DNA of 53,344 nucleotides. Origin: Clostridia bacterium (GTDB lineage Bacteria; Bacillota; Clostridia; Christensenellales; Aristaeellaceae). The stretch covers positions 1-53,344 of the forward strand of contig JAFSKN010000035.1 of NCBI GenBank assembly GCA_017448975.1, in the 5' to 3' direction. Position 1 is the stretch's first letter; every line of letters begins with the position of its first letter. A program made the translations under genes and the position numbers. Below are positions 1-13,915 of the stretch, one piece after another. The notes under the pieces are model-generated. The model had not been told where the DNA came from. It made no database searches and worked only from the letters and a program-made list of their open reading frames with translations.

Positions 1-99
1 GCCGATGACCGCCAGTGGCGGGAATCTCATCGGCGGTGAGATCAGGCGAAAAGGAGCAATCTCCCCATGAAGGGGAGTTGCGACTATTGAGCCTGCGGA
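1..99 (+). ncRNA. Candidate structured RNA, copy A
   Basis: This stretch matches 12139-12236 over its whole length at roughly 80% identity. Visible helices are CCGCC/GGCGG (9-13 with 17-21), ATCTC/GAGAT (24-28 with 38-42, 9-nt loop), and a long hairpin GCAA-t-CTCCCC / GGGGAG-TTGC (56-81, loop ATGAA). CCGAT at 2-6 can also pair with ATCGG at 29-33, inside the loop of the second helix, which would make a pseudoknot. Copy B changes both partners at C26-G40 (to T-A), A58-T79 (to G-C) and C63-G75 (to G-C). The 5' end may lie outside the window. Strand is inferred from the flanking genes. I do not recognise a known riboswitch class. Confidence 0.55.
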
Positions 100-101
100 A
101 C

Positions 102-120
102 TGGGGGCGGAGAGCCCCCA
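102..120 (+). repeat. GC-rich hairpin upstream of the TIM-barrel gene
   Basis: A perfect 7-bp stem TGGGGGC/GCCCCCA closes a GGAGA loop directly after copy A of the RNA candidate. No T-run follows, so it does not look like an intrinsic terminator. It could be a 3' helix of the RNA or a member of the GC-rich palindromes scattered through this window. Confidence 0.4.
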
Positions 121-183
121 ACGTCTCCTCCACAAATCCCAATTTCATATTTATACGAGAGCTTTGAAGGAGGCGGCTGTTTC

Positions 184-1425
184 ATGCCGGTTCTCGGGGT
201 TTGGCTGTGGCCGGAAACTGTAGAAAAAAGCGGAGCGGAAAAAACGCTGAACCGTTGCGTCAAAATGGGGGTCACGGATATCTTTTTTCTTACCAAGGGC
301 TTATCCGGCCGGGTTTCCTTCCGCAGCGGCATTGCGCCGCGGGGGCAGGAACGGGATCTGCTTGGGGAAGTGCTGTCCGCCGCCCATGACAGGGGCGTTC
401 GGGTGCACGCCTGGTTTACTTCGGCCAACGACGAGCACTATAAAGCCCTTCACCCGGAAAGCGGGCGCTGCCATTATGTGCGGGGAAAGGATAAGGGACT
501 GATTTCCCTGACGGACGAAGGGTATCTTTCCTATATACGCGGCATCCTGCGGGAAGCGGCGCGGAATTACGACATCGACGGCCTGCATCTGGATTATATC
601 CGATACAACCATCTGACCTACGGCTGGGACGAAAAGGATGTGATGCGTTACGCTGCCGCCGGGGCGGATATGGCGCATGTGCGCGCCCTGATGGACCGCA
701 CCTTCCTGCGGGGAGAAAAGAACGAGGAGAATTGCATCTTCGACGCGCTGCGGGCGGGCGATGAAAGCGTCCGCGCCATGGCCCGGGTCCGGCGGGAGGA
801 CGTAAGGCGCTTTGCCCGGGAACTGATCCTGCCGATTCGCGCTGAAAGGAAGCAAATCATGGTCAGCGCCGCCCTGATGCCCGAGGGCGCGTATGACGAT
901 ACCGCTTTTGCCGATCTGCATTACGGCCAAAGCTATGAGGACGCCGCCGTTCTGTATGATTGCGTTCTTCCCATGGCTTATTCCCAGGCCTACGGAAAGG
1001 ACGGGGGCTGGGTGCGCCGGGTGGCGGAGGGCGCGCATAAAAGAAATGTCAGAACGGTCATGGGCCTGCACGCCTTTGAGGGCGGTACCGGCAAAACCCT
1101 TCTTGAAGATATCCGCGCGCTGAAAGGAGCGCCAACGGAAGGCATTTGCCTGTTCAGGGCAGGCGCCTTTGTCATGGCCTGGCACGACGGCGGGCGGCTG
1201 TGGCTGTATAACCCGCTGGAGGCATCCGTTACCGCTGTGCTGGCCGACGGCGAGCCGCTTCCCCTGCGCGCGCCGCTGGAGCCCGGGGAAGAAAGCAGCG
1301 TTCCGCTTTCCGCGTTCCCAAAGGAAATACGGGCTTTTACGGAAAATCGGGAGGTGTGCGCGTATCTGGCGGGCACGGACGGACTGACGCGGGCAGAGAA
1401 CGAATCAATCGATCAGCAGGAATGA
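184..1425 (+). CDS. Glycosidase-like TIM-barrel protein (GHL10/DUF4015-like)
   Basis: The 413-residue product has no signal peptide and looks cytoplasmic. The segment GLHLDYIRYN at about residues 137-146 matches the conserved strand of the glycosyl-hydrolase-like GHL10/DUF4015 barrels, where an Asp on that strand lies in the presumed active site. VLPMAYSQAY (about 261-270) and TVMGLHAFEGG (about 291-301) fit later barrel strands. The last ~90 residues look like a small beta domain. The start is supported by AAGGAGG at 167-173, ten bases before the ATG. Upstream lies copy A of the RNA candidate. Substrate and activity cannot be read from the sequence. The fold assignment is fairly safe, the enzymatic role is inference. 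Confidence 0.7.
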   Translation: MPVLGVWLWPETVEKSGAEKTLNRCVKMGVTDIFFLTKGLSGRVSFRSGIAPRGQERDLLGEVLSAAHDRGVRVHAWFTSANDEHYKALHPESGRCHYVRGKDKGLISLTDEGYLSYIRGILREAARNYDIDGLHLDYIRYNHLTYGWDEKDVMRYAAAGADMAHVRALMDRTFLRGEKNEENCIFDALRAGDESVRAMARVRREDVRRFARELILPIRAERKQIMVSAALMPEGAYDDTAFADLHYGQSYEDAAVLYDCVLPMAYSQAYGKDGGWVRRVAEGAHKRNVRTVMGLHAFEGGTGKTLLEDIRALKGAPTEGICLFRAGAFVMAWHDGGRLWLYNPLEASVTAVLADGEPLPLRAPLEPGEESSVPLSAFPKEIRAFTENREVCAYLAGTDGLTRAENESIDQQE

Positions 1426-10271: not shown

Positions 10272-11207
10272 ATGACTGTAAATGCTGTGCCCGTGAAGAA
10301 GAAGCGCTCGTTCCTGCAGCGGATGCAGGGCAACTGGGATCTGCTTTTCTTCTGCCTGCCGGGGATCGTCATTACCACCATCTATCACTACATCCCCATC
10401 TACGGCGTGCAGATCGCGTTCCGCAACTATAAAGCGAAGAAGGGCATCTGGGGCAGCGACTGGGTGGGCCTGAAGAATTTCGAGCGTTTCTTCAATTCCG
10501 CCTACGCAGGCACCACCATCACCAACACGCTGCTGCTGAGCGTGTATTCGCTGGTTGCCTCCTTCCCTGTAGCGGTCATTCTGGCGCTGATGCTCAACTC
10601 CCTGCGGCACAAGCGCTACCGCAAGGTCATCCAGGCGGTCACCTACGCCCCCCACTTCATTTCCACCGTGGTCATGTGCGGTATGCTGATCCTGTTCCTC
10701 TCCCCCCGCGTGGGCGTAGTGAACACGGTCATCAAATCCCTGGGCGGCGAGGCCATCAACTTCATGGGCAAAAGCTACATGTGGCGTCACATCTATGTGT
10801 GGAGCGGCATCTGGCAGGGCATGGGCTGGAGCAGCGTGATCTACTTCGCGGCCCTGGCCGGGGTCAGCCCCGAATACCACGAAGCCGCCATTGTGGACGG
10901 CGCCACCAAGTTCCAGCGCGTGCTGCATATCGACCTGCCTTTCCTGGCTCCCACCATGACCATGCTGCTGATTCTTAACTGCGGCAGCATCCTTTCCATC
11001 GGCTTTGAAAAGGCGTTCGCCCTCCAGAACGACCTGAACATCGGCGTGTCCGAAATCATTTCCACCTACGTTTACAAGGTCGGTCTGATCAACCGGGATA
11101 TTTCCTTCTCCACAGCCATCGACCTGTTCAATTCCGTGGTGAACTCCATCCTGCTGATAACGGTAAACTTCATTACGGGCAAGATGTCCGGCAACAGCCT
11201 GTGGTAA
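10272..11207 (+). CDS. Carbohydrate ABC transporter permease, LplB/UgpA type
   Basis: A 311-residue membrane protein with six predicted helices and the cytoplasmic EAA loop EAAIVDGATKFQRVLHIDLP at about residues 204-223, which docks the ATPase. The N-terminus, with WDLLFFCLPGIVITTIYHYIPIYG, is typical of the LplB subfamily that imports oligosaccharides and polysaccharide fragments in Firmicutes. The ATG follows GGGAGGG at 10256-10262. The partner permease begins 16 bases downstream and the binding protein lies at 12335, giving the usual LplB-YtcP-binding-protein order. No ATPase gene lies in this operon, so a shared MsmX-type ATPase elsewhere is likely (inference). Confidence 0.93.
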   Translation: MTVNAVPVKKKRSFLQRMQGNWDLLFFCLPGIVITTIYHYIPIYGVQIAFRNYKAKKGIWGSDWVGLKNFERFFNSAYAGTTITNTLLLSVYSLVASFPVAVILALMLNSLRHKRYRKVIQAVTYAPHFISTVVMCGMLILFLSPRVGVVNTVIKSLGGEAINFMGKSYMWRHIYVWSGIWQGMGWSSVIYFAALAGVSPEYHEAAIVDGATKFQRVLHIDLPFLAPTMTMLLILNCGSILSIGFEKAFALQNDLNIGVSEIISTYVYKVGLINRDISFSTAIDLFNSVVNSILLITVNFITGKMSGNSLW

Positions 11208-11223: not shown

Positions 11224-12135
11224 ATGGAAAGCGCAAAGCACTTAAAACGCACCCGCAGCGACGTGGTTTATGACGCCGTCATTTTCGTTATCCTCACCAT
11301 CATCTTTCTGCTGGTAGCCTATCCGCTGTACTTCGTCATCATTTCCTCCTTCTCCGATCCCGTAGCGGTGGCGGGCGGCAAAGTGGTGCTTTATCCCGTG
11401 GGCTTCACCCTGGACGGATACAACGAAGTATTCAAAGCCAAAACCGTCATGCGCGGCTTCTTCAACTCCCTGCTGTACACCGCCGTGGGCGTATCCATCA
11501 ACCTGGCGGTGACCCTGCCCACCTCCTACGCCCTGAGCCGCAAGGATTTTCCCCTGAACAAGCCCATCACCCTGTTTTACATCGTTACCATGTTCGTGGG
11601 CGGCGGCATGATGCCCACCTACCTGGTGGTGCGGGATACCGGCCTGCTCAACACCATGTGGGCGCTGGTTCTGCCCGGAGCCCTGGGCGTGTACAACATG
11701 ATCGTGGGCCGCACATTCTTTACCACCAACATTCCCAGCGAACTGATGGAGGCCGCCAAGCTGGACGGCTGCGGCAACACCAAATTCTTTTTCCACATCG
11801 TGCTGCCCCTGTCCGGCGCCATCACGGCCATCCTGTTCCTGTATTACGGCGTGGGCCACTGGAACAGCTACTTCAGCGCCCTGCTGTATGTATCCGACCG
11901 CACCAAATGGCCTTTGCAGATGGAGCTGCGCAACATCCTGCTGCAAAACTCCGTGAACATGTCCAAAACCGTGATGACGGAGGAACAGCTTGCTGAAAAG
12001 GAACGCCTGGAGGCCCTGAAGGAAATGATGAAGTACTCCCTGATCATTATTTCCTCCATCCCCGTGCTGATTATCTATCCTTTCGTGCAGAAGCACTTCG
12101 TTAAGGGCGTCATGATCGGCTCCGTCAAAGGATGA
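11224..12135 (+). CDS. Carbohydrate ABC transporter permease, YtcP/LplC type
   Basis: A 303-residue inner-membrane permease of the MalG/YtcP group. It has six hydrophobic segments and the EAA loop EAAKLDGCGNTKFFFHIVLP near residues 178-197. VGGGMMPTYLVVRDTGLLNT is typical of the YtcP subfamily. The C-terminus ends in PFVQKHFVKGVMIGSVKG, as in most family members. GGAAGGGGG at 11208-11216 precedes the ATG. It forms a heterodimer with the preceding permease. Immediately after the stop codon (12133-12135) begins copy B of the structured-RNA candidate, which separates this gene from the binding-protein gene. Confidence 0.93.
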   Translation: MESAKHLKRTRSDVVYDAVIFVILTIIFLLVAYPLYFVIISSFSDPVAVAGGKVVLYPVGFTLDGYNEVFKAKTVMRGFFNSLLYTAVGVSINLAVTLPTSYALSRKDFPLNKPITLFYIVTMFVGGGMMPTYLVVRDTGLLNTMWALVLPGALGVYNMIVGRTFFTTNIPSELMEAAKLDGCGNTKFFFHIVLPLSGAITAILFLYYGVGHWNSYFSALLYVSDRTKWPLQMELRNILLQNSVNMSKTVMTEEQLAEKERLEALKEMMKYSLIIISSIPVLIIYPFVQKHFVKGVMIGSVKG

Positions 12136-12260
12136 GCAGCCGATGACCGCCTGTGGCGGGAATTTCATCGGGTGCGAAATCAGCCGAAACAAGCGATCTG
12201 CCCATGAAGGACAGTCGCGCCGATTGAGGCTGCGGATGAGCAGCCGAAGACCGCCTGTGA
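12130..12260 (+). repeat. 104-bp-spaced direct repeat enclosing RNA copy B
   Basis: About 26 bases beginning GGATGAGCAGCCGA at 12130 recur at 12234 with one mismatch, exactly 104 bases apart. The second copy stops after about 26 bases. It is a truncated tandem duplicate of the start of the RNA element. The interval 12261-12334 holds only the ribosome site and spacer of the next gene. Confidence 0.7.
12136..12236 (+). ncRNA. Candidate structured RNA, copy B, inside the importer operon
   Basis: This copy aligns along its length with 1-99. Helices are CCGCC/GGCGG around 12148-12160, ATTTC/GAAAT (12162-12166 with 12176-12180, again a 9-nt loop) and GCGA-t-CTGCCC / GGACAG-TCGC (12193-12218, loop ATGAA, one C-A mismatch). 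GCAGCC at 12136-12141 can close the whole element with GGCTGC at 12228-12233. ATCGG in the second loop can pair with the 5' CCGAT. It lies between the second permease and the binding protein, where it could serve as a transcript-processing or stabilising element or a ligand-responsive leader for the highly expressed binding protein (inference). Confidence 0.55.
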
Positions 12261-12334: not shown

Positions 12335-13915
12335 ATGAAGAAACTGGCCCTCGTACTGGCCCTGCTGATGGTGTTCACCAGCGTTCCCGCGCTGGCGGAA
12401 TTCAACGCCACCGGTCTGCCGATCACCAATGAAAAGACCGAATTCACCCTGATGATCGACGACAGCGGTATGCCGGAAGACAAGGTAATCTACCCCATCC
12501 TGGAAGACCAGACCAACGTGCACGTGGTGCTCGACCTGAACCCCTACCAGACCCAGCTTGAGCGTTTGGGCATCGCCCTGAACACCGAAAGCTATCCCGA
12601 AGTGATCGCGGGCTGGCTGCTGGGCACCAAAGACCTGATTGATTTGGGCATGGGCGACCAGACCTTCCTGCCTCTGGAAGACCTGATTGCCAAGTACGCT
12701 CCCAACATTCAGGAAGTGCTGGATATCCCCGGCGTCCGTGAGTCCATGACGCTGCCGGACGGCCACATCTATTCCATCCCCTACGTGGTGAGCGAGCCCA
12801 TGGCCACCTTCAAGCCCTACATCAACCAGGTTTGGCTGGAGCGTCTGGGCCTGAATATGCCCACCACCCCCGCCGAACTGAAGGAAGTTCTGATCGCCTT
12901 CCGCGATAAGGATGCCAACGGCAACGGCGACCCCAACGACGAAATCCCCTTCTCCGGCGACCCCAACAACCTGTCCCTGGGTATGCTGGCTGGCTGGTGG
13001 GGCGTGGACGCCAACAGCGGCAACAGCGACTATCCCTACTTCGCCCTGGTGGACGGCAAGATCCAGTTCAACGCCAATAAGCCCGAATACAAGCAGTTCA
13101 TCGAATTCTTCGCTGACCTGTATGCCGAAAAGCTGATCGACCCCGAAATCTTCACCCAGGACCTGGAAACCTGGAAGGGCAAGGGCAAGCAGGATCTGTA
13201 CGGCGTATCCATCGGCTATGGCCCCGGCGACTTCTATGAGAATTATGCCAAGGGCACTCCCGAATACGAAAAGTACGGCGAGAACGCCTTCACCTGGCTG
13301 CCCGTTCTGAAGGGCTGCGAGAACCCCATCTATCACCGCAACTCCTACGGCGTCACCCTGTTCCGTACCCAGGCCGTCATCACCGACAAGTGCGATGAAG
13401 AAAAGGCCGCCATCATCATCCGCTGGTTCGACAACCTGTTCACCGCCGACAACAGCCAGCAGTCTCAGTCCGGCCCTCTGGGTATCAAGATCGAAAAGCT
13501 GGAAGAAGGCCTCTACCGCGAACTGGATACCAGCGCCTGGGATGACGCCACCAACGAAAAGTACGGCTGGGGCAACATCTTCACCCAGTCCATGCCCCGC
13601 TACTATCACAACAACAAGGTGCTGGGCTTTGGCAAGACCGAAGTGGAGCCCTCCTTCATGGACCTGGCTGACGCCGCCTACGCTCCTTACCTGAACGAAC
13701 ACTTCCCCGCCGTGTGGGCCACCAGTGAAGAAGACACCAACCGTGCCTCCATCCTGGCCACCGACATCAACACCTACGTCAAGTCCAAGATCGCTCAGTG
13801 GGTCTCCGGCGAAGCCGACGTGAACGCCGAATGGGACGCCTACTGCGCTCAGCTGGAAGCCTATGGTCTGAGCGAACTGACCGAAATCCATCAGCGCGCG
13901 CTGGGCGAAATCTGA
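12335..13915 (+). CDS. Extracellular oligosaccharide-binding protein of ABC importer (LplA-like)
   Basis: A 526-residue secreted solute-binding protein. AAGGAGG at 12320-12326 sets the start, giving the signal peptide MKKLALVLALLMVFTSVPALA with an ALA cleavage site. No lipobox Cys follows, which is unusual for a Gram-positive binding protein. Later segments such as EVIAGWLLGTKDLIDLGMGD, FRDKDANGNGDPNDEIPFS (a Ca2+-loop-like Asp/Asn stretch near residues 190-208) and HRNSYGVTLFR fit the large LplA family that captures oligosaccharides. It is the third gene of the importer operon. How it stays at the cell surface without a lipid anchor is unclear. It may bind the membrane complex directly or be released. 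Confidence 0.88.
   Translation: MKKLALVLALLMVFTSVPALAEFNATGLPITNEKTEFTLMIDDSGMPEDKVIYPILEDQTNVHVVLDLNPYQTQLERLGIALNTESYPEVIAGWLLGTKDLIDLGMGDQTFLPLEDLIAKYAPNIQEVLDIPGVRESMTLPDGHIYSIPYVVSEPMATFKPYINQVWLERLGLNMPTTPAELKEVLIAFRDKDANGNGDPNDEIPFSGDPNNLSLGMLAGWWGVDANSGNSDYPYFALVDGKIQFNANKPEYKQFIEFFADLYAEKLIDPEIFTQDLETWKGKGKQDLYGVSIGYGPGDFYENYAKGTPEYEKYGENAFTWLPVLKGCENPIYHRNSYGVTLFRTQAVITDKCDEEKAAIIIRWFDNLFTADNSQQSQSGPLGIKIEKLEEGLYRELDTSAWDDATNEKYGWGNIFTQSMPRYYHNNKVLGFGKTEVEPSFMDLADAAYAPYLNEHFPAVWATSEEDTNRASILATDINTYVKSKIAQWVSGEADVNAEWDAYCAQLEAYGLSELTEIHQRALGEI

Follow-up and report, generated by a model that had tools for sequence, protein, structure and literature searches.

An ORF-less repeat of two hairpin domains, dispersed in Clostridia genomes and probably mobile as DNA

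The element and its neighbours in the window

The window, by which we mean the whole stretch of 53,344 nucleotides analysed here, opens inside a copy of the element. This copy 1 (1..99, + strand) was matched by covariance model R1 with 114.8 bits over model positions 13-111. As the contig ends at base 1 of the window, the copy is cut on its 5' side and lacks the first 12 model positions; in copies on other contigs, GCCGATGACC is preceded by GGGGACGAACC, the part missing here. Folding placed helix P1 at 1-8/27-34 with an inner stem at 9-13/17-21, and helix P2 at 43-47/91-95, 56-59/78-81 and 61-66/72-77 (all + strand). The RNA fold of copy 1 (-49.5 kcal/mol, z -5.3) agreed with the model structure. 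The hairpin CTGGGGGC..GCCCCCAA (101..121, + strand) flanks copy 1 on the 3' side. Judging from its sequence, it forms the right half of a host repeat of module B type, a separate repeat that received the element and whose left half lies outside the window. The gene downstream encodes a GHL10-like glycosidase (184..1425, + strand; PF02638, E 1.8e-10).

Copy 2 (12132..12236, + strand; R1 match of 112.6 bits at 12127-12236) starts with ATGA and is of the type found at permease stop codons. It follows the genes of a partner ABC permease (10272..11207, + strand; PF00528, E 5.8e-10) and of an ABC importer inner-membrane permease that ends in ...GSVKG* (11224..12135, + strand; PF00528, E 4.8e-6, 26.9 bits at a cut-off of 26.4). 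The stop codon of the latter (12133-12135) falls within the element, being the TGA of its ATGA, and copy 2 carries T at model position 7 and A at position 52. A second, incomplete tandem copy (12237..12259, + strand) consists of the element's 5' end only and directly repeats the 5' end of copy 2; tandem copies were also found elsewhere (L212, L200 and L175). The gene after copy 2 (12335..13915, + strand) probably encodes a substrate-binding protein, judging from its position behind the permeases and a signal-like N-terminus; its product matched 0 Pfam families at 1e-5. When copy 2 was folded as RNA (z -3.4), the minimum-energy fold contained the full P1 and part of P2; when it was folded as DNA, P1 and P2 were both present. 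DNA folding of the two window copies gave near-equal values for the strands, the top strand being marginally better.

The original prediction, made from these letters, had described two related copies of a structured RNA candidate, one before a glycosidase-like gene and the other within a carbohydrate importer operon. Both copies were recovered (1-99 against 12139-12236, 82% identity over 99 bases by blastn), and Pfam identified the neighbours as claimed, a GHL10-like glycosidase and a BPD_transp_1 permease. The candidate had also found no match among the named RNA classes. In agreement with this, a search of the whole window against Rfam at the gathering threshold gave 0 matches, and a search of five loci (L031, L107, L133, L145 and L064) with E up to 1 returned two tRNAs and four chance-level matches, with 0 on the element.

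Structure and pairing

The core of the element runs from ACGAACC to TGCGGA, with an ATGA start in one sub-lineage, and measures 103-106 nt in 160 of 177 copies. It is ORF-less, and its two domains, P1 and P2, can each fold as a hairpin. In a 25-copy alignment, P1 is formed by ACCGCCGATGA/TCATCGGCGGT with the inner stem CCGCC/GGCGG and a GAATN bulge, and P2 leads from CAGCC/GGCTG through GCAA/TTGC to a 6-bp stem closed by an ATGAA loop. Tandem G.A motifs occupy columns 8-9/50-51 and 60-61/101-102 in 25/25 rows, and a third lies at columns 66-67/94-95 in 22/25 rows. Some composites show a candidate closing helix beyond P1 and P2. We also observed a divergent subfamily in genomes G001 and G002 that keeps the P2-side motifs and has a different P1 (L193, L194, L216, L223, L224 and L230); several of its copies are flanked by GTCGAAGG...CCTTCGAC, with CCCAGGGGTTTTT following.

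Covariation was measured in alignment A3 (110 matches, 96 distinct), which was fitted to the covariance model and whose copies are paralogues of common ancestry. Within it, 97.8% of 3187 cells were paired and both sides had changed in 25 of the 36 pairs, flips between C-G and G-C being frequent. None of 500 shuffles (0/500) and none of six slid structures reached any of the five measures, and the structure of the element is therefore real. P1 sequences are replaced wholesale, with the arms still complementary. Covariation over the 96 distinct copies thus strongly supports the claim that the structure is conserved and its compensatory changes are genuine. As for the individual compensations proposed between the window copies, A58-T79 to G12195-C12216 and C63-G75 to G12200-C12212 are true pairs (columns 70/91 and 75/87 of alignment A2). 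The third, C26-G40 to T12164-A12178, did not hold, position 26 being in an unpaired internal loop; the true covarying partner of G40/A12178 is a base 5' of the region first compared, C in ACGA copies and T12133 in copy 2. The supposed pseudoknot between CCGAT (2-6) and ATCGG (29-33) turned out to be the nested arms of helix P1.

RNA helices tolerate G-U pairs and do not tolerate A-C. Among 250 distinct copies (8391 cells), we counted 67 G-U, 76 A-C and 188 other mismatches, the mismatch counts being inflated by divergent members from G001, G002 and G024, by a reverse-strand echo (L055) and by a match of 22 bits (L178). A control of 17 tRNAs (357 cells) gave 24 G-U and 0 A-C. The difference between element and tRNA in G-U against A-C reached a Fisher p of ~1e-7, a value to be read with the cells being non-independent events and the tRNA control being small. 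Counted in A3 as distinct pair-and-type events, the figures were 13 G-U, 18 A-C and 28 other mismatches, and 13 permease-stop copies taken by themselves had 1 G-U and 4 A-C among 462 cells. Since G-U does not exceed A-C, unlike in tRNAs, the pairing favours folded DNA over RNA. The simplest reading is that active lineages are selected for Watson-Crick complementarity in DNA and that resident copies decay in a strand-symmetric manner, although strict Watson-Crick pairing could also arise from arm-to-arm template switching. In an excerpt of PMC2864571, G-U pairs and tetraloops are used to judge the strand and to distinguish RNA from single-stranded DNA, and our test resembles the approach given there.

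Copies, insertion sites and the search for an enzyme

Two copies, as first counted, proved to be a large underestimate: the genome of the window holds 46 blastn matches and 68 matches to covariance model R1 (E up to 0.01). Within the genus, the element was found in 22 of 29 genomes including that of the window (E up to 0.001), the 29 having 0-67 matches each, and under stricter filters it was present in at least 55 of 250 genomes and at least 14 of 50 genera of the family, which we suspect to be Aristaeellaceae. Two near-complete genomes of another genus had 36 and 42 matches. A GTDB pattern scan gave Clostridia MAGs, many with ruminant host names, among the matches listed. A pattern of the P2 half had 0 matches in viral_contigs, and a phage origin was set aside on this result. 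No description of this repeat was found among the titles and abstracts of an open-licence literature set.

Copies lie largely between genes, 188 of 194 distinct ones overlapping called ORFs by at most 20 nt; ORFs were called with a codon scorer trained on the window. Where both neighbours were called (117 copies), 30 lay in sense and 38 in antisense between co-directional genes; convergent genes flanked 29 and divergent genes 20. The 79 copies of the second genus comprised 23 sense, 17 antisense, 12 convergent and 7 divergent, the remainder having a missing neighbour or an overlapped ORF. As copies occur in either orientation, their placement is not that of a cis-regulatory RNA. Some individual settings were recorded as well. 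At three loci (L107 6878-6988, L133 2737-2844 and L145 6743-6852), a small hydrophobic ORF has a copy in its 5' leader, with one promoter-like sequence on the upstream side and another, convergent, on the downstream side as seen by eye; type I toxin-antitoxin loci have this layout. In two species (L086 147-256 and L068 1978-2087), the element is open in frame between an ABC permease and an ATPase gene, where its sequence may provide a linker within a fusion protein. A divergent copy (L228 1501-1611) lies between rpmI (L35)-like and rplT (L20)-like genes.

The insertion site was examined in the 177 copies whose ends matched the end patterns, the others being left out. Directly 5' of these copies is a G-run, with G at -2 in 94% and at -1 in 96%; on the 3' side the only regularity is A or T at +1, in 73%. 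Many copies are flanked by repeats that carry hairpins of their own, and three such modules were followed in filled and empty form. Module A was filled in 17 cases, empty in 13 and otherwise in 2, module B in 10, 39 and 3, and module C in 9, 7 and 0, with one doubtful row among the empty ones of module C (L059, a broken tandem core) and one among those of module A (L368). Empty modules read GGGG|TCTGGGG or alike at the junction, and filled ones GGGG|ACGAACC...TGCGGA|TCTGGGG or alike. The empty modules reveal no obvious target duplication; a duplication of GG would remain compatible with them. Modules A, B and C are paired GC-rich hairpins that are abundant between genes and often stand at gene ends (L064, L069, L121, L067, L108, L009, L161 and others); they are possibly bidirectional terminators.

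Presence and absence could be compared at two loci of the genus. Between acpS and nnr (27 loci), R1 found the core in 3 genomes (G000, G005, and G025 at a contig end), and in G000 and G005 it is antisense to both genes. G009 and G006 have module A at the same place without the core, which could be due to loss or to a separate arrival, and in G016, G026, G003, G020 and G027, among others, acpS and nnr lie side by side and the core is absent. At miaA (ten loci), the core was present in G000, G005 (truncated) and G023 and absent in seven; the locus of G010 contains coreless modules, not strictly identical ones. A stretch at nnr is 100% identical over 801 bases between G000 and G025 and a stretch at miaA 90% (L322/L323); with the former, contamination or recent transfer between bins is possible.

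One class of copies has a more regular placement. At most 20 nt past an upstream stop codon on the same strand we found 22 copies (13, and 9 in the second genus), 15 of which lie on proteins ending in ...KG-stop; all 15 of these proteins matched PF00528 above the cut-off. The proposed link to sugar metabolism therefore stands for these 15 copies on permease genes; none was seen for the remaining copies, only part of whose neighbours were annotated. The next called gene appeared binding-protein-like at its start in 12 of the 15, as judged by eye, and in L176 the gene downstream of the element matched PF01547. Copies with ATGA lie in the context ...AARGG|ATGA on the stop codons of sugar-type ABC permeases. 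Ten of them begin directly after AARGG, so that the element's own ATGA provides the stop codon. Position 52 is A in 10/10 scored ATGA copies, all on permease stops, and G in 142/142 scored ACGA copies; it was unscorable in 13 of 165 parsed copies, at least 4 of which are cut at a contig end. Three KG copies follow a TAA stop (L229, L307 and L313), and in these Watson-Crick complementarity of the opposite arm continues across the stop. In L175 and L200 the core, within a tandem group, begins 16 nt past the stop. The operons concerned are mostly those of different paralogues, the listed identities above 30% being mainly 30-55%. One permease pair across two genera shares 75% identity, is probably orthologous and has the element in both. 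Permease stops could thus be a good site that is reached repeatedly, or one at which the element is retained for long; both are possible.

In search of a mobilising enzyme, Y1_Tnp (PF01797) was looked for in the 29 genomes of the genus and in 6 genomes (G005 being in both sets). It was not detected in G005, G025, G009, G010 and G019, genomes with 32-62 copies, incompleteness of the MAGs possibly concealing some Y1 proteins. Proteins of RAYT length were present in G000 (1), G209 (2), G141 (3, with 5 shorter ones of IS200 type), G180, G229 and G117; their open frames measure 245-335 aa in the five g51 genomes, a range we take to be RAYT-like, and 256 aa in G000. Among 32 Y1 matches overall, 18 loci were scanned and the core was found in one (L383), beside a tnpA of IS200 length; the examined loci of RAYT-length genes had no core. 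In G141 and G209, 2 of 10 Y1 matches lie less than 2 kb from a core (start-to-start distances of 569 and 1740 bases), the latter being a RAYT-length gene of G141 near a single core, and the other 8 are more than 14 kb from any core. Any association between Y1 proteins and the element is at best weak, and a RAYT or other Y1_Tnp protein, not detected in several of the genomes rich in copies, was rejected as the mobiliser. Five further loci without the element (L203, L379, L384, L385 and L386) encode Y1 transposases of RAYT type, called at 213-266 aa, whose C-terminus looks HTH-like by eye.

Interpretation and comparison with known systems

We are confident that the element is a dispersed insertion repeat, and moderately confident that it spreads by single-strand transposition. 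Taken as a whole, the reading we prefer, that of an ORF-less miniature mobile DNA repeat moving as a folded single strand, appears probable, with considerable room for doubt. The original prediction had named a mobile repeat without transcription among the contrary outcomes, and as regards the mobile repeat what was found is largely of that kind: many copies are dispersed with either orientation, sites without the element exist, other repeats have received it, and G-U pairs are no commoner than A-C. The element would move as folded single-stranded DNA, as do IS200/IS605 ends and REPs, with an enzyme presumably supplied in trans. At permease stops, insertion may be tolerated because the stop codon comes with the element, and once transcribed the hairpins might incidentally adjust how strongly the downstream gene is expressed. 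Against this reading, the Y1_Tnp search tied no transposase to the element, and movement is deduced from comparison; a functional RNA would equally be expected to show tandem G.A motifs and a helix that spans a stop codon; some copies lie in sense within operons; and the permease pair with the element in both genera could represent retention for function. A bolder version, to which we give little credence, would make the element a new class of strand-specific transposon of less than 110 nt, in which nearly the entire body is a folded DNA strand, bearing three tandem G.A motifs, that an unrecognised enzyme inserts into G-runs. The ATGA lineage would then home to the conserved ...KG-stop codons in permease genes of sugar importers, bring its own stop with a compensatory T7-A52 pair and set the ratio of permease to binding protein.

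The same observations may be read as a cis-acting regulatory RNA, such as a riboswitch, attenuator or mRNA stabiliser, whose copies are transcribed leaders or 3' UTRs. The strong covariation, the copies that lie in sense at permease stops ahead of binding-protein-like genes, the three in leaders that look promoter-bearing before small hydrophobic ORFs, and a P1 that spans the stop codon, with Watson-Crick pairs replacing tandem G.A at TAA stops, would all suit it. However, copies lie in either orientation to their neighbours, with the permease-stop class as the only consistent one, and even that class shows no excess of G-U (1 against 4 A-C). The core may be present or absent within the host repeats, and the element has no Rfam relative. 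The riboswitch-like regulator first proposed is not what dispersed copies in both orientations, without a preference for G-U over A-C, would lead one to expect, and we regard a regulatory RNA as rather unlikely.

A REP or REPIN repeat mobilised by a RAYT is also unlikely. It would account for a high-copy, extragenic, hairpin-forming sequence that is mosaic with other repeats and at times in tandem, and RAYT-length Y1 proteins do occur in five g51 genomes and in G000, with one in G141 starting 1740 bases from a core. Yet the RAYT-length loci examined contain no core, and Y1_Tnp went undetected in several genomes rich in copies. The element, moreover, starts with ACGAACC or ATGA and ends with TGCGGA, without a tag like the GTAG or CGTC ones described, and its ~105 nt and two domains differ from the 20-40 bp given for REPs in an excerpt of PMC3733652. 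We consider it still less probable that the copies are neutral palindromes, kept complementary by template-switch correction of quasipalindromes and dispersed through ordinary recombination among repeats, without dedicated mobility. Watson-Crick pairing, the symmetric decay to G-U and A-C and the wholesale replacement of P1 with both arms staying complementary agree with such a process, but correction would erase the near-invariant G.A mismatches, and the defined ends and one-sided GG target argue for a defined insertion reaction.

Strong covariation is the usual proof of RNA structure. Here it occurs without a preference for G-U and together with the behaviour of a mobile repeat, which is a warning and at the same time points to a cheap test. 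The element, present in several genera and in two near-complete genomes, offers a compact system for the spread of ORF-less folded DNA repeats without a linked transposase, and also bears on how insertions settle on importer stop codons without breaking genes.

Among known systems, the element works like a REP or an IS200-derived MITE, and in two defining tests of REPs it does not come out as one. With REPs and BIMEs (RAYT, TnpA-REP) it shares high copy number, extragenic and palindromic character, location near gene ends, mosaic structure and one distinguished strand; it differs in its length of ~105 nt, its two helical domains, its tandem G.A motifs, the missing GTAG tag and, at the loci examined, RAYT-length genes without a flanking core. 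Non-autonomous IS200/IS605 derivatives (PATE-type MITEs) are characterised by the absence of target duplication, a one-sided 5' target, hairpins near the ends and strand polarity. The element resembles them in strand polarity, end hairpins, a one-sided 5' target and the lack of an obvious target duplication, and is unlike them in being structured over nearly its whole length, in its GG-run target and in that no autonomous partner with matching ends was found at the Y1_Tnp loci. The intercistronic REP between malE and malF of E. coli is a hairpin repeat in a sugar ABC importer operon, and in this it is alike; its sequence is another, and the element begins inside the permease stop, mostly before a binding-protein-like gene. 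Finally, the excerpt of PMC3733652 describes CGTC-tagged REPs with stems of 8-9 bp and no dedicated transposase in five phyla, Firmicutes not being among those it names. The element is palindromic and no dedicated transposase was tied to it in the Y1_Tnp search, which recalls what is described there for these repeats, from which it differs in tag and geometry.
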